Shown: positions 14,374-62,298 of the stretch, one piece after another
Layout: each line of letters begins with the position of its first letter
How positions within the stretch are numbered: position 1 is the stretch's first letter
Assembly (NCBI RefSeq): GCF_003721435.2
Contig: NZ_CP054585.1
Span: forward strand, 1,364,001-1,428,000
DNA: 64,000 bases
Origin: Halorubrum sp. CBA1229
Lineage (GTDB): Archaea; Halobacteriota; Halobacteria; Halobacteriales; Haloferacaceae
Direction: 5' to 3'
Notes under the pieces: model-generated
The model's database searches: none
What the model was told of the DNA's origin: nothing
What the model saw: the letters and a program-made list of their open reading frames with translations, nothing else
Program-made: the position numbers and the translations under genes

Positions 14374-16011
14374 TTACGCGAACTTCCGGACGGTCATCTC
14401 CAGCGTGTCGAGGTCGAGGATGGGCGCGTACCCCGCGTCGGGGTCGATGTTGACGGATTTTTGGAAGTCGGTCTGGGCCTGCCAGCAGCCGGAGTTGACC
14501 GCGAGCACGTTGTGGTACTTCCCCCACCCGAGCTTGTGAACGTGGCCGGTGTGGAACACGTCCGGGACGTCCTGGATGACGAGGTAGTCGCGCTCCTCCG
14601 GAGCGACGCGGGTGTGCCCGCCGAACTGCGGGGCGACATGCCGCTTTTTTAAGAGCTGGTACATCGCTTTATGAGGCTCGTCGTAGCTCGCTTTCTCCTC
14701 GGGGAGCTCCGCGATAACCTCGTCGAGAGAGACGCCGTGGTACATCAGCACGTCGACGCCCTCGACGCTGACGGTGGCGGGGTTCGAGACCACCTGCGCG
14801 TCGTGGACGTCGAGGATGTCGCGGATCTCGTCGTTGAACCCGGGCTGCGGCTCCGCGAGCCGGACCGCGTCGTGGTTGCCGGGGATCATCACGATCTCGG
14901 TGTCCGCCGGGACCTCCTTGAGGTGTTCCGAGAACGCCTCGTACTGGTCGTAGATGTCGACGATCTCCAGCTCCTCGTCCTGATCTGGGTAGACGCCGAC
15001 GCCCTCGACCATGTCGCCAGCGAGCAGGATGTACTCGACCGCCTCGGCCTCGGGCGTGTGGAGCCAGTCAGTGAAGCGGTGCCACGCCTCGGCCATGAAC
15101 TCGTCGCTGCCGACGTGGACGTCGGAGATCAGCGCGGCCTGGACGTGGCGGTCGGCCGCGCCGGTCCGGTGGGTTCGCGGGACATCCGGGAAGTGCAGCG
15201 AGTCGGCGAACAGGATTCCGGAGTCGTCGGCGAGGGTTCCCTCGACGGCGACGCACTCGTCCATCAGGATCTCGTCGACGACGTCGGCGAGCCCCTTGTC
15301 TTTCATCACCAGCGCCGGGAAGGTGCCGGTGGTGTCCTCGAGCTCGACGAGCCAGTGGCCGGACTTGGTCGAGCGAACGTCGTTGACGAGCCCGATCATC
15401 GCGGCGTCGCTGCCGCCGGGCATGTCCGCGATCGCCTCCGCCGGACGGTGGTTGACGCGGCCCCGAAGGATCTTCGAGAGGCGCTCGTAGCGGTCGCGGA
15501 ACGTCCGGACGAAGTCGGCGTACTCGCCGGTCCCGGTGCTCCGTCCGGTCATGTCGTTGCCGACCTCGAGCTCTCGGAGCTCCGGGTCGCGGTCGGGGCT
15601 CCGGGAGGGTCCGTCCTCGCGGCTCCGGTCGCGCTCGCCGCCGGGCTCCGCGGAGCCGCGATCGGAACGCTCGTCGGTCGATGCGACGCGGTCGGTTCCC
15701 CCGGACCCCTCCGTTTCGACTGGAGATCCTCCGGTTGGAGGGTCTGCGTCGGGGGTTGAGTCCGTCGAGGGTCCGGAGTCGACGCCGGAACGGGCCGGCG
15801 TCTCGGAGTCGGCGACGCCGTCCGAACCGACCGCCGCGCGGACCTGTTCGGCGGTGATGCGGAGGGCGTCGTCCGGCGCGCGGTCGACGGCGCGTTCGAG
15901 GGCCGTCGCGGAGTCAGGGGCGCTCGCCAGCAGGGTGACCGCCTCTCGCTCTGCGTTGTATCCCCGCCTGGCGAGCTCCTTGACGATTCGGGCGTTCGAC
16001 TCCAGCGGCAC
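14374..16011 (-). CDS. polB: DNA polymerase D (PolII) small subunit DP1
   Basis: 545-residue exonuclease subunit of the archaeal replicative polymerase D. The N-terminus 'VPLESNARIVKELARRGYNAEREAVTLL' is followed by a disordered Ser/Asp-rich linker, an OB fold ('GHWLVELEDTTGTFPALVMKDK') and a calcineurin-like phosphoesterase domain: 'LISDVHVGSDEF', 'LLAGDMVEGVGV', 'VMIPGNHDAVR', 'MYHGVSLDE', 'FHTGHVHKLG'. All metal ligands are visible. I chose GTG at 16011 because the family starts with this sequence and a TATA-like TTTTGA lies about 27 bases upstream; a TTG at 16038 is the only longer option. Sits with orc1 in the classical origin neighbourhood. Confidence 0.94.
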   Translation of the reverse strand: MPLESNARIVKELARRGYNAEREAVTLLASAPDSATALERAVDRAPDDALRITAEQVRAAVGSDGVADSETPARSGVDSGPSTDSTPDADPPTGGSPVETEGSGGTDRVASTDERSDRGSAEPGGERDRSREDGPSRSPDRDPELRELEVGNDMTGRSTGTGEYADFVRTFRDRYERLSKILRGRVNHRPAEAIADMPGGSDAAMIGLVNDVRSTKSGHWLVELEDTTGTFPALVMKDKGLADVVDEILMDECVAVEGTLADDSGILFADSLHFPDVPRTHRTGAADRHVQAALISDVHVGSDEFMAEAWHRFTDWLHTPEAEAVEYILLAGDMVEGVGVYPDQDEELEIVDIYDQYEAFSEHLKEVPADTEIVMIPGNHDAVRLAEPQPGFNDEIRDILDVHDAQVVSNPATVSVEGVDVLMYHGVSLDEVIAELPEEKASYDEPHKAMYQLLKKRHVAPQFGGHTRVAPEERDYLVIQDVPDVFHTGHVHKLGWGKYHNVLAVNSGCWQAQTDFQKSVNIDPDAGYAPILDLDTLEMTVRKFA

Positions 16012-16128
16012 GACAGTCGAGAGGAGTGTGCGGCTCAAAACGGTTCCGGAGGACAGGTCCGCCGTCCGCCGGGCGGACGGGAGCTGTGACCCGGAAGCTT
16101 ATCACCGAAACCCGTCAACCCGAACGTA

Positions 16129-17217
16129 ATGGACGAAGGGGATCGGCCGGAGACAGACGGTGATCCGGCCGAGCGAAGCGGGGCGTCGGGCGCGAGCGGA
16201 GACGACCGCGACGAGACGGACTCAGTCGCCGCGTCCGAATCGGCCGACGCGTCCAAATCGACCGACGATCCCGAACCAGTCGACGATCCCGAGAGGACTG
16301 ATGGGACCGAACAGTCGAATAGATCCGGACAGATAGACGAGCCCGACCCGATTGATACCCCCGAGACGGTCGAACCGTCCGAGGGAGGAGGAGTTTCGGG
16401 AGACGACGACCGCGGGAGTGGATTCGCGGAGCGAACTCGCGAGGGGCCGGCTCCAACCGAAACGAAGGGGCTCGCCTATCGGTTCCGTCACGACAAGGAA
16501 GGCGCGTTGATGTGGATCCGGGAAATGCTCTCCAGCGTCGCAATCGTGCTGGTGATCGGGCTGATCCTGTTCGGAATTAGCGGGGTGTGGCCGCCGATGG
16601 TCGCGGTCGAGTCCGGGAGCATGGAGCCGAACATGGAGGTCGGCGACCTCGTCTTCGTGACGGAGCCCGGGCGGCTCGCGCCCGACGCGGCGAACAACGA
16701 CGTCGGCGTGGTAACGTACGAGGACGGGCGGGCCGCCGATTACCGGACGTTCGGATCATACGGGTCAGTGGTGATATACCGGCCGCCGGGACGGACGGCC
16801 TCACCGATCATTCACCGGGCCATGTTCCACGTCGAGGAAGGTGAAAACTGGTACGACCGGGCCGACGACGAGTACCACGGCGCGGCGGGGTGCGCCGACC
16901 TAAGGCACTGTCCGGCCCCCCACGACGGGTTCATCACGCTCGGCGACAACAACGGCGCGTACGACCAAGCCAACGGGCTCGCGCCTCCGGTCAAGGCCGA
17001 GTGGGTGACCGGCGTCGCCCGGGTTCGCGTCCCGTATCTCGGATACGTGCGGCTGATCGCGAGTGGGCAGGCGGAGCTGAGCGACGTGCTCGCGACGACC
17101 GTCGCGGCGGAGGCGGTCGATAGGGTGGGTGAAACCGAGGACTCCGCGGCCGCGAGCGATGAGTTCTCGAAGCCCACAGTTTCGGGTGGAGGTTCGATCG
17201 CGAGCGCGTCCGCGTGA
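16129..17217 (+). CDS. Type I signal peptidase (Sec11-like)
   Basis: Removes signal peptides from Sec-exported proteins at the membrane. 362 residues. A 110-residue disordered acidic N-terminus is followed by one membrane segment ('MLSSVAIVLVIGLILFGISGVW', about 130-155). Next come box B 'VESGSMEPNMEVGDLVFV' (catalytic Ser near 162), box D 'SPIIHRAMFHV' (catalytic His near 227, which replaces bacterial Lys in archaea) and box E 'FITLGDNNGAYDQ'. An ORB-like sequence lies inside the coding region (16451-16472). Divergent from DP1. Confidence 0.92.
   Translation: MDEGDRPETDGDPAERSGASGASGDDRDETDSVAASESADASKSTDDPEPVDDPERTDGTEQSNRSGQIDEPDPIDTPETVEPSEGGGVSGDDDRGSGFAERTREGPAPTETKGLAYRFRHDKEGALMWIREMLSSVAIVLVIGLILFGISGVWPPMVAVESGSMEPNMEVGDLVFVTEPGRLAPDAANNDVGVVTYEDGRAADYRTFGSYGSVVIYRPPGRTASPIIHRAMFHVEEGENWYDRADDEYHGAAGCADLRHCPAPHDGFITLGDNNGAYDQANGLAPPVKAEWVTGVARVRVPYLGYVRLIASGQAELSDVLATTVAAEAVDRVGETEDSAAASDEFSKPTVSGGGSIASASA
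16451..16472 (+). other. ORB-like sequence inside signal peptidase gene
   Basis: CTCCAACCGAAACGAAGGGG followed by CT resembles the origin recognition box seen in the origin itself (CTCCAGTTGAAACGAAGGGG at 19909-19928): 17 of 20 positions are identical, including the whole GAAACGAAGGGG half. It encodes 'APTETKGL' in a low-constraint part of the protein. Whether Orc1 binds here is unknown. Confidence 0.5.
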
Positions 17218-17335: not shown

Positions 17336-19060
17336 TCAGTTGTCAAATCGGGCCTGAACGAACGGCTGGGCGTTCTCGATGTCGCCGAGACGGGAATCGG
17401 ACAGCAGCACCGCTTCGGTCTCCTCGACCGGGACCGAGAGGCCCATCTCCTTCGTGCGGCCGTACCGGCCCTTCGAGACGACGACCGCGTTGACGATTCC
17501 GAGCATGTCGAGCTCGCTGATGAGGTCGGTGACGCGGCGCTGCGTAAGTACGTCCGCGTCGATCTCCTCGCACAGCCGCTTGTAGATGTTGAACACCTCG
17601 CCGGTGTTGATGTTGTGGACGCCGTTCTTCTCGAGGAGGATGACAGCGAAGAGGACGATCTTGCTCTGGGTCGGGAGCGTTCTGACGACTTCCACGACGC
17701 GGTCGAGCTCGATCTTGTCCTGCGCTTGTCGGACGTGTTTCTCCGCGACGATCTCGGCCTGAGAGCGCTCGGCGAGCTCGCCGGCCGTCCGGAGGAGGTC
17801 GAGCGCGCGCCGAGCGTCCCCGTGCTCCTGGGCTGCGAACGCCGCGCAGAGCGGGATCACGTCGTCGGTGAGCGCCTCCTCTTTGAACGCGATGTCAGCG
17901 CGGTGCTGGAGGATGTCCCGGAGCTGGTTCGCGTCGTACGGCGGGAAGACGATCTCCTCCTCGCCGAGGCTGGATTTGACGCGGGGATCGAGGAAGTCGG
18001 TGAATTTCAGGTCGTTGGAGATCCCCATGATTGAGATCCGGGACCGGTCGAGCTCGGAGTTCATCCGCGAGAGGTTGTACAGGGTGTCGTCGCCGCTCTT
18101 CTCGACGAGCTTGTCGATCTCGTCGAGCATGATCACGACCACGCGCTCGTGGTAGTCGACCGCCTCGAAGAACGTCGAATAGACCCGGTCGGTCGGCCAC
18201 CCGGTCATCGGGACCTCCTCCATCTCCTCCGCGTCGGTCTCGAGCTCGTCGATCCGCGCGTCGAGATCGTCGAGCGTCGCGAACTCGGTGGTCGCGAGCG
18301 CTCCGGGGTCGTCGGTCGCCTCGGACCTGAGCTCTCGGCAGCGGTCGAGGCGGTCGGCGATGACCTGCTGGTTCTTCTCGATGAAGGTGTTGGCGAGCTG
18401 CGCGAGGACGCGGTACTGCGTGTCGGTCACCTCGCAGTTGATGTACTCGACCTCACAGGGAACGTCGTACTTCTGTGAAGTCGATTCGAGCTCCTGTGAA
18501 ACGAACTTCGCCGACGCCGTCTTCCCGGTGCCCGTCTTGCCGTAGATGAGGATGTTGGAGGGCGTCTCACCGCGGAGCGCCGAGACGAGGATCGTCGCCA
18601 TTCGGTTGATCTGGTCGTTTCGGTGCGGGAGTTCGTGCGGAGTGTAAGACGGCCGGAGCACCTCCTTGTTCTCGAAGATCGGTTCGCCGGAGAGGAGGTC
18701 GTCGAACAGGCCCTGATTGTCGTCCTCGTCGTCGAGAACGACGCCGTCAAAGTCGACGTCCGGGGTAGAACGGTCGCGTCCGCCGCTGCCGACGTCGACG
18801 TCGGTGTCGGTAGTTACCTCAGTGTCGACATCTCCTTCAGTCCCGGCGTCGGTGTCGGGATCCGGTCCGGTACCGGCGTCAGTGCCGACGGTACTGTCCG
18901 ACCCGGTGCTGTCGATGTTCTCGCGGTCTAGGCCTGTTTCGTGGGCCGTCGAACTCGAAGGCGGATCGTCGAGCTCCTCATCGGTCGTGAACGGGTCATC
19001 GGTTTCCCCGCCGCTATCCCCCGATTCGCCCGCCTGCGATGTGTGCTCTCCTTCGTCCAT
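17336..19060 (-). CDS. orc1: Orc1/Cdc6 replication initiator
   Basis: 574-residue origin-binding AAA+ ATPase. A 140-residue acidic, disordered N-terminus precedes 'LRPSYTPHELPHRNDQI', Walker A 'LIYGKTGTGKTASAKFV' (about 170-177), Walker B 'VVIMLDEIDKLV' (about 312), sensor-1 'ISIMGISNDLKFTDFLD' and a C-terminal winged helix ('RRVTDLISELDMLGIVNAVVVSKGRYGRTKEMGL'). Its adjacency to the ORB-containing region marks this as the main-origin initiator (Orc1-1/Cdc6-1 type). An ORB ends 6 bases before the start codon, suggesting autoregulation. Confidence 0.96.
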   Translation of the reverse strand: MDEGEHTSQAGESGDSGGETDDPFTTDEELDDPPSSSTAHETGLDRENIDSTGSDSTVGTDAGTGPDPDTDAGTEGDVDTEVTTDTDVDVGSGGRDRSTPDVDFDGVVLDDEDDNQGLFDDLLSGEPIFENKEVLRPSYTPHELPHRNDQINRMATILVSALRGETPSNILIYGKTGTGKTASAKFVSQELESTSQKYDVPCEVEYINCEVTDTQYRVLAQLANTFIEKNQQVIADRLDRCRELRSEATDDPGALATTEFATLDDLDARIDELETDAEEMEEVPMTGWPTDRVYSTFFEAVDYHERVVVIMLDEIDKLVEKSGDDTLYNLSRMNSELDRSRISIMGISNDLKFTDFLDPRVKSSLGEEEIVFPPYDANQLRDILQHRADIAFKEEALTDDVIPLCAAFAAQEHGDARRALDLLRTAGELAERSQAEIVAEKHVRQAQDKIELDRVVEVVRTLPTQSKIVLFAVILLEKNGVHNINTGEVFNIYKRLCEEIDADVLTQRRVTDLISELDMLGIVNAVVVSKGRYGRTKEMGLSVPVEETEAVLLSDSRLGDIENAQPFVQARFDN

Positions 19061-19065
19061 ATGAA

Positions 19066-19089
19066 CCCCCCTGTTTCAGGTGGAAATTC
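19066..19089 (-). other. ORB at the orc1 start codon
   Basis: Read on the minus strand this is GAATTTCCACCTGAAACAGG, followed by four more G. It has the TTTCCA-n-GAAAC dyad followed by a G-string, as in the two origin ORBs. It lies between the orc1 ATG (19058-19060) and the upstream region, where Orc1 binding could repress its own promoter or form part of the origin. Confidence 0.7.
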
Positions 19090-19620: not shown

Positions 19621-19685
19621 ACGGAAGTTGGATCCCCGAACCCCCCCACCCCCACGGAAGTTGGATCCCCGAACCCCCCCACCCC
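19621..19685. repeat. Tandem 33-bp repeat in the origin
   Basis: Two near-perfect copies of ACGGAAGTTGGATCCCCGAA followed by a run of C and A (19621-19653 and 19654-19685). A third, partial copy of the GATCCCCGAACC part is at 19864-19875, on the other side of the AT-rich tract. C/G-runs next to ORBs are typical of haloarchaeal origins. Confidence 0.85.
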
Positions 19686-19703
19686 TTTGTTTCGTGTGGA
19701 ACG
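19682..19703 (-). other. Origin recognition box, left
   Basis: On the minus strand: GTTCCACACGAAACAAAGGG (plus one more G). Dyad GTTCC/GAAAC-like core followed by AAAGGGG and a long G-string. It is oriented toward orc1 and forms an inverted pair with the right ORB. Confidence 0.82.
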
Positions 19704-19904: not shown

Positions 19905-19936
19905 CGTCTCCAGTTGAAACGAAGGGGTGGGGGAGG
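19905..19936 (+). other. Origin recognition box, right
   Basis: CGTCTCCAGTTGAAACGAAG followed by GGGTGGGGGAGG. Canonical haloarchaeal ORB: TCCA-n-GAAACGAAGGGG with an extended G-string pointing away from the AT-rich tract. Confidence 0.85.
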
Positions 19937-32944: not shown

Positions 32945-33592
32945 CTACTCCTCGCGCGACAGCACGCCGTGACCCTCCAGCACCTTCCCGAGCCGGAACA
33001 TGGAGGCGACGACGGCGTCGCAGACCGGGCGGACCGCGTCCTTCGGCACGAATCCGACCGCGAGCCCGGCGACCTCCAGCATCGGGAGGTCGTTCGCGCC
33101 GTCGCCGACCGCGACCGTCTCGGCCATCGGGTAGCCGAGGTCGTCGGCCAGATCGGCCAGCGCGTCGTCTTTGGTCCCCTCGATGAGCGGCCCCTCGGCG
33201 TCGCCGGTGAGCTTCCCCCCCGCCATCGGGAGGCGGTTGGCGACGATCGTGTCGGCCTCGACGCCTTGCTTCGCGAGCGCGCGCTCGACGCCGCGCTCGA
33301 ACCCGCCCGTGAGCACCGCGACGTGGTGGCCGTCGGCCTGCAGGCGCTCGATCAGTTCGCCGGCGCCCGGCCGGAGCGCCACCTCGTCGAACGCGGCCGC
33401 GACGTCGTCCTCGCCGAGCCCGCCGAGCAGCTCCGCCCGCCGGTAGAGGCTCTCGGCGTAGCTGAGCTCGTCGTTCATCGCCCGCTCCGTGATCGCAGCC
33501 ACCTCGTCGGCGACGCCCGCCCGCTCGGCGAGCAGGACCGTCATCTCGGAGTCGGAGAGCGTGCCGTCGAAGTCGAACGCGATGAGGCTCAT
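32945..33592 (-). CDS. serB: Phosphoserine phosphatase
   Basis: Last step of serine synthesis. 215-residue HAD phosphatase from ATG 33592: motif I 'MSLIAFDFDGTLSDSEMTVLL', motif II 'VAVLTGGFERGVERAL', motif III lysine in 'LADDLGYPMAETVAVGDGANDLPMLEVAGLAVGF' with the GDGAND acid pair. Cap-domain substrate residues look normal. serA, first enzyme of the same pathway, is at 45137. Assignment to serine rather than another small phosphate ester is by similarity. Confidence 0.87.
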   Translation of the reverse strand: MSLIAFDFDGTLSDSEMTVLLAERAGVADEVAAITERAMNDELSYAESLYRRAELLGGLGEDDVAAAFDEVALRPGAGELIERLQADGHHVAVLTGGFERGVERALAKQGVEADTIVANRLPMAGGKLTGDAEGPLIEGTKDDALADLADDLGYPMAETVAVGDGANDLPMLEVAGLAVGFVPKDAVRPVCDAVVASMFRLGKVLEGHGVLSREE

Positions 33593-33689
33593 GGACTCCG
33601 TTCGGCCCGGAGCCGTTTTTAAACACCCGATCGCGCAACGATGACGCGCCCCCGGTGGTCTTTTTGCCCGTCGCGGTCGTCGTCTCCGC

Positions 33690-43579: not shown

Positions 43580-44863
43580 TTACAGGCGACCGTCGCTGTC
43601 AGTCGACCCGTCGTCGGGACCGGGATGCTCGACCCGGACCCGCGTCACCCGCGTCGGGGTCGCGCCCGTGACGGTGAGCGTCACCTCGCCGATCTCGACT
43701 CGGTCGCCCTCGGCCGCGATCCGCCCGACGCGCCGGGTGATCAGCCCCGCCACCGTCTCGACGCCCCCGTCGATCGGGAGCTCCAGCCCGAGCGTCTCGT
43801 TGAGGTGCGCGACGGTGGTCCACCCGCGGACGACCGCGGCGTCGGGCGCCACCACGTCGACGTGGTCGGTCTCCCACCGCCCCACCAGCTCGCCGACGAC
43901 CTCCTCGACGACGTCCTCCAGCGTGACGATCCCGACGACCGCGCCGAACTCGTCGACGACGACCGACAGTCGTTGCCCGCTCGACCGCAGCTCGTCGAAC
44001 AGCTCGTCGACGGGCTGGGTCTCCGGCACGAACGTCGGCTCGTGGAGGGCGCTCGCCAGGGGCTCGCCCCGCTCGTGGGCGCCGATGGCGTCGCGCACGT
44101 CGACGGTCCCGATGATATCGTCGCGGTTCTCGCCGTAGACGGGCATCCGCGTGACGCCCTCGCGCCCGGCGGTCGAGAGGACGTCGGCCGGGGTCGCGGT
44201 GTCTGGGACCGCCACCATGTCGGTCCGGGGAACCATCACCGCGGAGACGCGGGTCGACCCGAAGTCGAGCACGCCGCGGATCATCGCCCCCTCGTCGGCG
44301 TCGATCGCGCCCGCGGCCTCTCCCGAGAGCACGAGCGTCGCGATCTCCTCGCGGGTGAGGTACGACTCGATGGCGGACTCGCCGCCCGTGAAGCGGTTGA
44401 CGACGCCGGAGAGCGCCTCGAAGACGTACAGCACCGGGCGGATGACGCGCTGGATCCCGACGACCGGCCGCGAGACGCGGAGCGCGTGCCTCTCGGCGTT
44501 CGCAACCGCGTACGACTTCGGCGCGATCTCGCCGAAGACGATGACGAAGACCGAGGTGACGATCGTCGACCCGGTCGCGGCCTGGCCCCCGGAGAAGCCG
44601 AACCGGACGAACACCGCGGTCGCGACCGAGGCGGCCGCGATGTTGGCGACGTTGTTGCTCACGAGCGCCGTGACGAGGAAGCGGTGCGAGTCCTCTCGAA
44701 GCGCCGAGAGCGCCCGCGCGCCGGGGACGTCGGCCGCGAGCAGCGAGTCGATCCGGTGCGTCGGGACCGAGAAGACCGCCAGCTCCGAGCTGGAAAAGAA
44801 GGCGCTGATCCCCGTCAACACGAGGATGGCGGCCACGCCGACGAACGCGATCGTGATGTCCAT
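43580..44863 (-). CDS. CNNM/CorC (HlyC) family transporter
   Basis: 427 residues. DUF21 membrane domain: 'MDITIAFVGVAAILVLTGISAFFSSSELAVFSVP', 'LVTALVSNNVANIAAASVATAVFVRF', 'SVFVIVFGEIAPKSYAVANAE'. Two CBS domains follow ('VMVPRTDMVAVPDTATPADVL'; 'LSVVVDEFGAVVGIVTLEDVVEEVVGELVGRWETD') and a CorC_HlyC transport-associated C-terminus. Family members export Mg2+ or other divalent metals, gated by ATP at CBS. With the MgtE pair at 26 kb it suggests Mg2+ homeostasis. Divergent from serA. Start ATG 44863. Confidence 0.9.
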   Translation of the reverse strand: MDITIAFVGVAAILVLTGISAFFSSSELAVFSVPTHRIDSLLAADVPGARALSALREDSHRFLVTALVSNNVANIAAASVATAVFVRFGFSGGQAATGSTIVTSVFVIVFGEIAPKSYAVANAERHALRVSRPVVGIQRVIRPVLYVFEALSGVVNRFTGGESAIESYLTREEIATLVLSGEAAGAIDADEGAMIRGVLDFGSTRVSAVMVPRTDMVAVPDTATPADVLSTAGREGVTRMPVYGENRDDIIGTVDVRDAIGAHERGEPLASALHEPTFVPETQPVDELFDELRSSGQRLSVVVDEFGAVVGIVTLEDVVEEVVGELVGRWETDHVDVVAPDAAVVRGWTTVAHLNETLGLELPIDGGVETVAGLITRRVGRIAAEGDRVEIGEVTLTVTGATPTRVTRVRVEHPGPDDGSTDSDGRL

Positions 44864-45136
44864 GTGGGCACGTGCGCCCCGATATAAAAGGCAGTACCGC
44901 CGCGGGCCGAGCGCGCTCGGGGCCGCTGGACGAGCACTCTCGGCGCCCGGACGACCAGCGGCCGGCGCCCCGAGGCGAGCGGAGGGGGGCGCTCCGCGAC
45001 CGCGATCCGGGTAGACACGAACGAGGTGTTTCCACCGGAAACGAAGGGGGTGCATACGCACGATCAAGGATCATATCGCCCGGCAAAACGGCGCGATTCG
45101 GAAAGCGTTAACCTCGCCCCGCCGGAGGATACGGGT
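44864..45136. promoter_or_regulatory. Divergent promoter region with ORB-like box
   Basis: 273 bases between the transporter gene and serA. It contains an ORB-like palindrome (45028-45052, listed separately), a TATA-like AGCGTTAACC (45102-45111) and a ribosome-binding CCGGAGGA (45122-45129) 7 bases before the serA ATG. 'GATATAAAAGG' (44881-44891, minus strand) is the likely transporter promoter, about 18-28 bases before its start. The rest is GC-rich and featureless. Confidence 0.55.
45028..45052 (+). other. Orphan ORB-like sequence
   Basis: GTTTCCACCGGAAACGAAGG followed by GGGTG. It has a perfect GTTTCC-acc-GGAAAC dyad and the GAAACGAAGGGG half found in the right origin ORB. It lies about 25 kb from the origin with no initiator gene nearby. 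Confidence 0.65.
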
Positions 45137-46741
45137 ATGAAGGTACTCGTGACCGACCCCATCGCGGACGCGGGGTTGGACCGACTCCGAGACGCCGGCC
45201 ACGAGGTCGAAACGGACTACGACGTCGAGGGGGAGGCCCTCCTCGACGCCGTGAGCGACGCCAACGCGCTCATCGTCCGCTCCGGGACGGAGGTCACCGA
45301 GGCCGTCTTCGAGGCCGCCCCCGAGCTCGTCATCGTCGGTCGCGCCGGTATCGGCGTCGACAACATCGACATCGAGGCCGCGACTGACAACGGGGTCATC
45401 GTCGCCAACGCGCCCGAGGGGAACGTCCGGGCCGCCGCCGAGCACACGGTCGCGATGACGTTCGCCGTCGCCCGCTCGATCCCGCAGGCGCACGGCCGCC
45501 TCATCGGCGGCGAGTGGGCCAAAGGCGAGTTCCTCGGCACCGAGGTGAACAACAAGACGCTCACCATCGTCGGGCTCGGCCGCGTCGGGCAGGAGGTCGC
45601 CAAGCGGCTCGACTCGCTCGGGATGGACCTGGTCGTCTACGACCCGTACATCTCCGAGGAGCGCGCCGACCGGCTCGGCGCCGAACTCGTGGAGGACCTC
45701 CACGAGGCGCTCGCGCGCGGCGACTTCGCGACGGTCCACACCCCGCTCCTCCCCGAGACCGAGGGGATGATCGGCGAGGACGAGCTGGCCCAGCTGGAGG
45801 GAGGCTACCTCATCAACTGCGCCCGCGGCGGCATCGTCGACGAGGCCGCGCTCGCCGAGGCGGTCGACGACGGCGTCCTCGCGGGCGCCGCGCTCGACTC
45901 CTTCGCCGAGGAGCCGCTCCCCGAGGACTCGCCGCTGCTCGACGTCGAGGAGATCGTCTTAACGCCGCACCTCGGCGCCTCGACCGAGGCGGCACAGGAG
46001 AACGTCGCGGTCGACACCGCGGAGGCCGTGCTCTCGGCGTTCGACGACGAGCCCGTTCTGACGGCGCTCAACGCGCCCTCGGTCGACGAGACCGCGTTCC
46101 CGCGGATCAAGCCGTACATCGCCGTCGCGGAGACCGCCGGGAAGGTCGCCGCGCAGCTGCTCGACGGGCGGATCACGAGCGTGGAGACGGCCTACGAGGG
46201 CGACATCGCCGACGAGGACGTCGAGCTCGTCACCGCGAGCGCGCTGAAGGGCGTCTTCGAGCCGCTCGAGTGGCAGGTGAACGCGGTGAACGCGCCGCGG
46301 CTCGCCGAGGAGCGCGGCATCGACGTGACCGAGTCGAAGACCCGCCAGACGGAGGACTTCCAGAGCCTCGTGCGCGTCACCGTCCATAACGGCGAGGACT
46401 CCATCGCCGTCGAGGGGACCCTGTTCGCCGGCGAGGACCCGCGCATCGTCCGGATCGACGGCTTCCGCGTCGACGCGGTCCCGTACGGCAACATGCTGGT
46501 CGCGCGCAACACGGACGAACCCGGCGTCATCGGGCTCATCGGCACCGTGCTCGGCGACCACGACGTCAACATCGCCGGGATGTACAACGCCCGCGAGACG
46601 CAGGGCGGCGAGGCGCTCACCGTCTACAACCTCGACCACGACGTCCCCGACGCCGCGATCGAGGCGCTGCTCGACGACGACCGGATCGTCGAGGTCACCG
46701 AGATCACGCTCGACGAGGCCGACGAGCGACAGGCGGAGTAG
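45137..46741 (+). CDS. serA: D-3-phosphoglycerate dehydrogenase
   Basis: First committed step of serine synthesis. 534 residues (long SerA type). Substrate domain 'MKVLVTDPIADAGLDRL', 'RAGIGVDNIDIEAATDNGVIVANAPEGN'. NAD-binding 'LTIVGLGRVGQEVAKRLDSLGMDLVVYDPY'. Catalytic 'FATVHTPLLPETEGMIGEDEL', 'LINCARGGIVDEAALAEAV' and 'TPHLGASTEAAQENVA' with the His. An intervening ASB domain and a C-terminal ACT domain ('MLVARNTDEPGVIGLIGTVLGDHDVNIAGMYNARET') follow. ACT suggests serine feedback. A clear ribosome-binding site supports ATG 45137. Confidence 0.95.
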   Translation: MKVLVTDPIADAGLDRLRDAGHEVETDYDVEGEALLDAVSDANALIVRSGTEVTEAVFEAAPELVIVGRAGIGVDNIDIEAATDNGVIVANAPEGNVRAAAEHTVAMTFAVARSIPQAHGRLIGGEWAKGEFLGTEVNNKTLTIVGLGRVGQEVAKRLDSLGMDLVVYDPYISEERADRLGAELVEDLHEALARGDFATVHTPLLPETEGMIGEDELAQLEGGYLINCARGGIVDEAALAEAVDDGVLAGAALDSFAEEPLPEDSPLLDVEEIVLTPHLGASTEAAQENVAVDTAEAVLSAFDDEPVLTALNAPSVDETAFPRIKPYIAVAETAGKVAAQLLDGRITSVETAYEGDIADEDVELVTASALKGVFEPLEWQVNAVNAPRLAEERGIDVTESKTRQTEDFQSLVRVTVHNGEDSIAVEGTLFAGEDPRIVRIDGFRVDAVPYGNMLVARNTDEPGVIGLIGTVLGDHDVNIAGMYNARETQGGEALTVYNLDHDVPDAAIEALLDDDRIVEVTEITLDEADERQAE

Positions 46742-61441: not shown

Positions 61442-61513
61442 AGTCCATTGGGGTAGTGGCCAATCCTGTTGCCTTCTGGGGGCAACGACCCTGGTTCGAA
61501 TCCAGGATGGACT
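61442..61513 (+). tRNA. tRNA-Gln (anticodon CTG)
   Basis: 72 bases. Acceptor AGTCCAT pairs with ATGGACT; the D-arm contains GGGTAGTGGCC; anticodon stem TTGCC/GGCAA with loop TTCTGGG gives anticodon CTG; the T-arm has CCTGG-TTCGAAT-CCAGG. No intron. CCA is not encoded. Preceded by a weak AT-poor promoter region. Canonical. Confidence 0.95.
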
Positions 61514-61701
61514 ATTCTCGCGGTTCGCCTGTCTCCGACCCCGAACTGGCGCCCCGCTTCGGTTCATCTGCGGGGGTTCGTTTCGCGTGGATCGCCTCGT
61601 TCGCCTCGACGTCTTCTTTCACTTGGAATCAAAAACCGCTCACGTACTGCGGTTTCCAGTAGAAACCAAGGGGTATGGGAACCGTTCGCCCGCCATCCCG
61701 C
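61514..61701. other. Spacer after tRNA-Gln with hairpin
   Basis: 188 bases between the tRNA and the cgi121 stop codon. AAACCGC (61633-61639) pairs with GCGGTTT (61649-61655) in a 7-bp hairpin that runs into an ORB-like box (61651-61679). The rest has no gene-like sequence and no integrase or attachment duplication of the tRNA 3' end. Confidence 0.45.
61651..61679 (+). other. Orphan ORB-like sequence near tRNA-Gln
   Basis: GGTTTCCAGTAGAAACCAAG followed by GGGTATGGG. The dyad GGTTTC/GAAACC is followed by AAGGGGT, as in origin ORBs. It overlaps the second arm of a hairpin and lies about 42 kb from the origin. Confidence 0.55.
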
Positions 61702-62298
61702 TCACTTCTCGACGTCGAGCAGCGCGACCCGCTCGCGGACGACGTCGGTCAGGTCGCCGGCCGTCGCCGCGAGCTCGCGGTCGGAGACGCCGTAGAACTC
61801 CCTGACGCGCTCGGCGTCGAAGTCGCCGTCGCCCGCGCCGTCCGCCTCGGTCGTCAGCTCTTCGACCGCCGCGGCGGCCGCGTCGAGGTCCGCGGCGGGG
61901 CGGTCCGCGCCGGGGACGCCGCCGAAGTCGGCGACGAGCACGGCCGCGCGCTGTTCGCCCTCGGAGACGCCCAGCGCCAGCGCGCGGTCGATCTGCCGTC
62001 GGCCGGCCGCGTACAGCATGATCTCGACGCCCGGGTCGCGCGCGACGGCCTCGCCGCGGGCGACCGCCCGCGCGGCGAGGCGGGTCGCCTCGCGGAGGTG
62101 CGCGTCGGAGACGACGAGGTCGGCGTCGAACGCCTGCACGACCGCGCCGGTCTCGGCGCCGATCTCGTCGAGCCGGGAGAGGAAGCCGTCGAGGTCGTCG
62201 ATCGCGACCGTTCCGCGCACGAGTCGGTGGGGCGGGGTCGGGGGGTCTGGGAGGGCGTCGTCGCTTCCGCCGGTGCCGAGAGCGTCCTCGCCGCTCAC
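61702..62298 (-). CDS. cgi121: KEOPS complex subunit Cgi121
   Basis: 198 residues from GTG 62298. The KEOPS complex makes the t6A modification of tRNA position 37; Cgi121 binds the Bud32 kinase and the tRNA CCA end. Visible family pattern: '[54 protein letters not shown]', '[35 protein letters not shown]'. The start overlaps the hel308 stop (GTGA), a coupling seen in other haloarchaea. Confidence 0.9.

Follow-up and report, generated by a model that had tools for sequence, protein, structure and literature searches.

A single ORB of the type found at the haloarchaeal origin oriC1 lies upstream of serA in a Halorubrum chromosome, and we consider it probable that this box serves the serA promoter as a regulatory element on its upstream side, with an Orc1/Cdc6 initiator as its reader. 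The initial annotation of this DNA had left a transcription site as one of several options; it is the option favored here because the box keeps its orientation and spacing relative to serA and is retained both when the gene is relocated and when its neighbor changes, with the binding and the effect on transcription standing as predictions. If true, this would give a replication initiator a part in the control of a metabolic gene.

Results

An ORB upstream of serA

The window, that is, the whole stretch of 64,000 nucleotides that was analyzed, is part of a Halorubrum chromosome (G000:C1:1364001-1428000). Its features around the box are:

43580-44863, minus strand: gene of a CNNM-family transporter, the divergent neighbor, of which the box is independent (Pfam; synteny)
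45012-45025, plus strand: conserved left flank of the box, consensus TACCCACGAACGNG (ORB-anchored column conservation)
45028-45052, plus strand: serA-upstream ORB, with its palindrome at 45028-45042 and its G-run at 45046-45050, conserved in 35/39 Halorubrum genomes
45058-45073, plus strand: conserved right dyad, consensus CCACGATCGNGGATCG, degenerate in this genome (ORB-anchored column conservation)
45100-45113, plus strand: putative core promoter of serA resembling a BRE/TATA, GGAAAGCGTTAACC, about 26-37 bp upstream of the ATG
45137-46741, plus strand: serA, phosphoglycerate dehydrogenase (Pfam; TIGR01327 equivalog above cut-off)

The perfect palindrome GTTTCC-ACC-GGAAAC and the following GAAGGGGGTG at 45043-45052 are read directly from the sequence, exactly as initially described. 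The placement given at that time also holds, as oriC and orc1 lie about 25-26 kb to the left, the region is divergent (the ATG of serA is 84 bp beyond the box and the start of the CNNM gene 164 bp off), and there is no second initiator gene beside the box, the nearest other Cdc6_C gene being about 80-81 kb away. The pattern TTCCN3GGAAACN3GGGGG has a single mismatch-free match in the 3.58-Mb genome, which is this box, and the core TTCCA-N3-GAAAC and the G-run of an oriC1-type ORB are both present. A matrix built from 50 ORBs, taken from origins and orc1 starts, scores it at 28.0 versus 36.0, 35.4, and 32.9 for the three oriC-region ORBs. Model R1, trained on origin and orc1-start ORBs with zero serA ORBs, gives 21.0 bits versus 23.1, 23.0, and 21.6, in a comparison that leans toward the ORB-like pattern by which the loci of the training ORBs were found. 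The base after GGGG is G in the serA box and T in the three oriC-region ORBs. The claim that the box is at least as close to canonical as the origin ORBs is only partly right, given its lower score, the G in place of T, and the missing long G-string of the oriC pair.

A shorter pattern with one mismatch allowed finds matches in 50/59 relatives, and its reversed control in 0/59. The initial annotation had raised the possibility that the matrix matches random sequence equally often, which is not borne out: 6.4 Mb of simulated sequence with the same dinucleotide make-up contains 0 matches of at least 14 to the oriC-trained matrix. Chance occurrence is rejected on the unique exact match together with these two zeros, and 45028-45052 is, by sequence, a genuine ORB, presumably bound by Orc1. 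One palindrome arm is imperfect in most relatives' serA boxes, so the perfect palindrome seen here is incidental.

Features of a replication origin

The origin in the same window provides the reference for what an origin-type ORB is accompanied by:

17336-19060, minus strand: orc1/cdc6 initiator gene beside oriC (Pfam Cdc6_C, Cdc6_lid)
19065-19086, minus strand: ORB on the orc1 start, with a short G-run like that of the serA box (matrix)
19681-19702, minus strand: oriC ORB, left member of the inverted pair, with an extended G-string (matrix)
19907-19928, plus strand: oriC ORB, right member of the inverted pair (matrix)

The matrix scan of the serA-CNNM intergenic region found one box only and no inverted partner. 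There is no AT-rich unwinding element in this region, where the best 60 bases are 48% AT versus 72% in oriC, a value that 17% of 465 control stretches reach, and no orc1/cdc6 adjoins the box. The box is single, with no cluster of many initiator boxes of the kind that makes up an oriC2D- or datA-like locus. The halophile-specific extended G-string is likewise absent from the serA box, with 2 G in the next ten bases. Across loci, the mean number of G in the ten bases past GGGGT is 7.4 in the origin pair (n=26), 2.1 at serA (n=35), and 2.0 at the orc1 start (n=13), and in its short G-run the serA box resembles the orc1-start ORB rather than the origin pair. According to a review (PMC4010727), replication from oriC1 in H. 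hispanica requires the G-string elements.

The orc1-start ORB at 19065-19086 ends 5 bp upstream of the start codon and is conserved in Halorubrum (13 loci); by its position it could serve in autoregulation of the initiator. The genome has nine Cdc6_C loci, four of them on a second contig of 364 kb.

Conservation across haloarchaea

SerA is present in all 39 Halorubrum genomes searched, and the box lies upstream in 35 of them; it is degenerate in one (G003), and three (G001, G024, and G027) have no scoring box. Among 80 named loci picked by SerA protein similarity alone, 34 carry the box, namely 28/33 in the Halorubrum clade, three in Halobaculum, one in Candidatus Halobonum, and two in Halarchaeum, a genus of another family; it is missing at the other 46. 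Before serA, the box was found in none of 20 genomes from other genera and families (best score 11.3). The box is dispensable, because most haloarchaea are without it and several Halorubrum have lost it. On the SerA tree, its presence needs at least eight changes of label, and the Halarchaeum box may derive from independent gain or from common descent. One record in this tree, titled Halobellus captivus strain ZY8, places its SerA inside Halorubrum and apart from that of ZY21, and may be mislabelled.

The orientation of the box is identical in all 34 positive SerA loci. Its distance to the ATG in 50 distinct promoters is 105/106 in 39, 115 in one, 127/128 in eight, and 164 in two; these 50 are out of 59 distinct promoters, including six outgroup loci that were added for being ORB-positive, and the count is 44/53 otherwise. 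The box is conserved in position and orientation relative to the serA core promoter, as a transcription-factor site would be. The classes 105/106, 115, and 127/128 are about zero, one, and two helical turns apart, a suggestive pattern and no more. The most conserved columns of the serA box are those that are invariant in the training ORBs (TCCA, GAAA, GGGG, T). A coding origin of the motif, in a long ORF from 45026, is rejected because the distances to the ATG (105, 106, 115, 127, 128, and 164) span several frames.

The element at 45100-45113, which we take to be BRE/TATA from its placement, is conserved among serA promoters, even those without an ORB. The left flank TACCCACGAACGNG and the right dyad CCACGATCGNGGATCG were not seen beside the origin ORBs of the loci compared, and such conserved flanks suggest a further or partner protein at the serA box. 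The right dyad as a window-wide motif is rejected, its pattern having 6 matches in the whole window versus 17.4 expected, with no enrichment.

The box and its neighbors

The serA gene and its box lie 184 kb from oriC in Halobaculum litoreum and 281 kb from it in genome G018, and in Hrr. cibi this distance is about 297 kb and the box is weaker (23.3; R1 at E 0.1 does not list it). In both Halarchaeum genomes the serA box is the best-scoring ORB of the genome, with the oriC pair on a separate contig. The CNNM gene adjoins serA in most Halorubrum and in Halopenitus. A link of the box to CNNM is rejected, as the box is seen without CNNM in Halobaculum, Halobonum, Halarchaeum, Hrr. amylolyticum, and Hrr. 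alkaliphilum, and is missing with CNNM as neighbor in both Halopenitus. The divergent position is taken by serB, encoding phosphoserine phosphatase (TIGR00338 above cut-off in 3/3 proteins tested), in Halobaculum, Halobonum, and Halarchaeum, and the box there lies between two genes of the serine pathway. The serB of the Halorubrum genome itself is elsewhere:

32954-33679: serB, about 11-12 kb from serA

The matrix scan found no ORB of at least 14 near this serB start. Since the box is kept at 184, 281, and about 297 kb from the origin and whichever the divergent gene, CNNM or serB, it follows serA rather than oriC or CNNM.

Other ORBs outside the origin

The box was initially called an orphan, a label that its conservation before serA contradicts, as do further extra-origin ORBs in the window:

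15705-15726, minus strand: extra ORB inside the PolD small-subunit gene (14374-16038, minus strand) (matrix)
16450-16471, plus strand: weaker ORB-like site (23.8) in a signal-peptidase-like gene between polD and orc1
61653-61674, plus strand: extra ORB between the 3' end of cgi121 (61702-62298, minus strand) and tRNA-Gln (61442-61514, plus strand)

Extra-origin ORBs are common in haloarchaea. A clustering of matrix sites near oriC, proposed in the initial annotation as a point to check, is indeed found, with 48/63 sites of at least 20 bits lying within 60 kb of oriC on 27 chromosomes of related, not independent, genomes. The count covers 28 of the 52 R1-searched genomes, those with a main chromosome contig of given length, less one (G107) without a recognizable pair; R1 matches are listed down to 14.5 bits, which leaves the count at 20 bits and above unaffected.

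The ORB of the PolD small subunit is in-frame and sits in a variable linker (L186-L194, L201, and L205). Several families have two ORBs in this gene about 56 nt apart, encoding PSVSTG...PVETKGS. In 12/12 sequences, all picked for ORB hits so that the codon counts are biased accordingly, the PVET part is written with CCA and GAA, the rarer codons, plus Gly GGG; in genes overall, these codons make up 11% (CCA), 26% (GAA), and 28% (GGG). This choice of codons hints at selection on the DNA. The PolD boxes are also kept far from oriC, as in genome G128, at about 1.5 Mb. The ORB at the cgi121 3' end, downstream of hel308 and between convergent genes in this genome, has its place occupied in several families (L197-L200, L215, and L220), the gap being larger in L197 and L198. 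Neither the PolD-gene ORBs nor those at cgi121 are in promoters, which argues that some extra ORBs may have a nontranscriptional role, for example in titration.

Discussion

In the mechanism that we propose, Orc1, encoded 26 kb away at oriC, would bind the serA box with its winged helix on the TTCCA/GAAAC arms and the initiator-specific motif of its AAA+ domain on the G-run, as judged by analogy from solved structures of archaeal Orc1 on origin DNA. From a position about 50 bp before the serA BRE/TATA, it would activate or modulate transcription of serA, possibly together with another protein on the conserved flanks, and the supply of serine and one-carbon units would track either the level of the initiator or its nucleotide state. 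The place of the box upstream of the core promoter suggests activation rather than repression, with serA as the presumed controlled gene.

The reading that competes most directly with a promoter element is one in which the box binds spare Orc1 and damps re-initiation, its place before serA being historical. In E. coli, datA is an initiator titration site. Several observations are consistent with such buffering, including the concentration of extra-origin ORBs around oriC, the recurrence of ORBs inside the PolD small-subunit gene and after cgi121, where promoter regulation is unlikely, and oriC2D with its 11 ORBs, which is reported to restrain oriC2, likely via titration of Cdc6E (PMC3936714). 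We find titration attractive for the other extra-origin ORBs, which are for the most part close to oriC and within coding or 3' regions. At serA, however, one box adds little to the three at oriC, and buffering does not require a fixed orientation and spacing, conserved flanks, or persistence 184-297 kb from oriC, nor does it account for the box staying with the serA promoter, so that we think it rather unlikely here. A somewhat different possibility is that the site at serA is read by another protein, either an Orc/Cdc6 paralog or an unrelated regulator with an ORB-like site. The nine Cdc6_C matches in the genome, the conserved flanks with their hint of a further protein, and the role of the noninitiator paralog Orc1-2 as a transcription regulator in Saccharolobus islandicus (accessible text of PMC9738581) all point in this direction. 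Against this, the serA box retains the columns of oriC1 ORBs, including the G-run, and Orc1-2 uses a different hexanucleotide motif according to the same text, which leaves another reader doubtful in our estimate.

The same clustering of extra ORBs near oriC could reflect a mark for chromosome organization or segregation that stands before serA by happenstance, but the box stays with serA when distant from oriC, and we regard such a mark as very unlikely. A remnant or dormant second replication origin, also suggested in the initial annotation, has in its favor only that the box is an ORB. It is hardly credible, because the region has no AT-rich element, no inverted partner, and no extended G-string, the last of these being essential for oriC1 replication in H. 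hispanica in the accessible text of PMC4010727. There is also no other cdc6 within about 80 kb, and the box is conserved in genera that are far apart, unlike a decaying remnant; an origin remnant is rejected on these features.

Beyond the regulatory element favored for serA, we tentatively extend the argument to a broader scheme, which we hold as possible rather than probable. Here, Orc1 would also be a transcription factor of serA (of the serB-serA pair in several genera), tying initiation capacity to the supply of serine and one-carbon units, and ORBs would be of two kinds by their G-string, long at origins and short for regulation at serA and orc1. Serine feeds glycine and one-carbon units for purines and thymidylate, and a link of the initiator to serA would, speculatively, be sensible for this reason. 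In the literature found, there is no precedent for a link of an initiator to serine, and control of genes by an archaeal initiator via the origin motif is unreported. An ORB at serA or within the PolD gene is also unmentioned in that literature, subscription papers and supplements aside, as far as the accessible texts of PMC3528665, PMC12141716, PMC3936714, PMC9738581, PMC4595724, and PMC4010727 go. As the box is kept across genera before one biosynthetic gene at 184-297 kb from the origin, the question is directly testable. If titration turned out to be true instead, the conserved extra-origin ORBs in the PolD small-subunit gene, at the cgi121 3' end, and at serA would offer a natural system for initiator buffering.

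Four known systems help to place the serA box. The haloarchaeal oriC1 ORBs, reviewed in PMC4010727, share with it the core TCCA-N3-GAAA and GGGG(T), whereas the serA box is single and promoter-borne, without an AT-rich element, extended G-string, or adjacent cdc6. The oriC2D of Haloarcula hispanica (accessible text of PMC3936714) is similar in having ORBs outside the origin proper, but consists of 11 ORBs directly downstream of cdc6E, compared with one box at serA, 25 kb away (far more in relatives) and before a metabolic gene. An Orc1 relative acting at promoters is known from Saccharolobus islandicus in Orc1-2, with the DDRE motif; according to the portion of PMC9738581 that is accessible, this protein is a noninitiator with the hexanucleotide ANTTTC, whereas at serA the origin motif itself lies in a promoter and regulation is predicted. 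Finally, bacterial DnaA boxes, for example in the dnaA promoter (PMC8203912), resemble the serA and orc1 sites in that initiator boxes occur both at the gene of the initiator itself and in further promoters, but they are an unrelated motif from another domain of life for which regulation has been shown, in place of the regulation proposed for the serA box. In bacteria, DnaA performs both initiation and transcription jobs, as described in the same text, and an initiator that is also a transcription factor raises the same question for the archaeal relative of eukaryotic Orc1/Cdc6.
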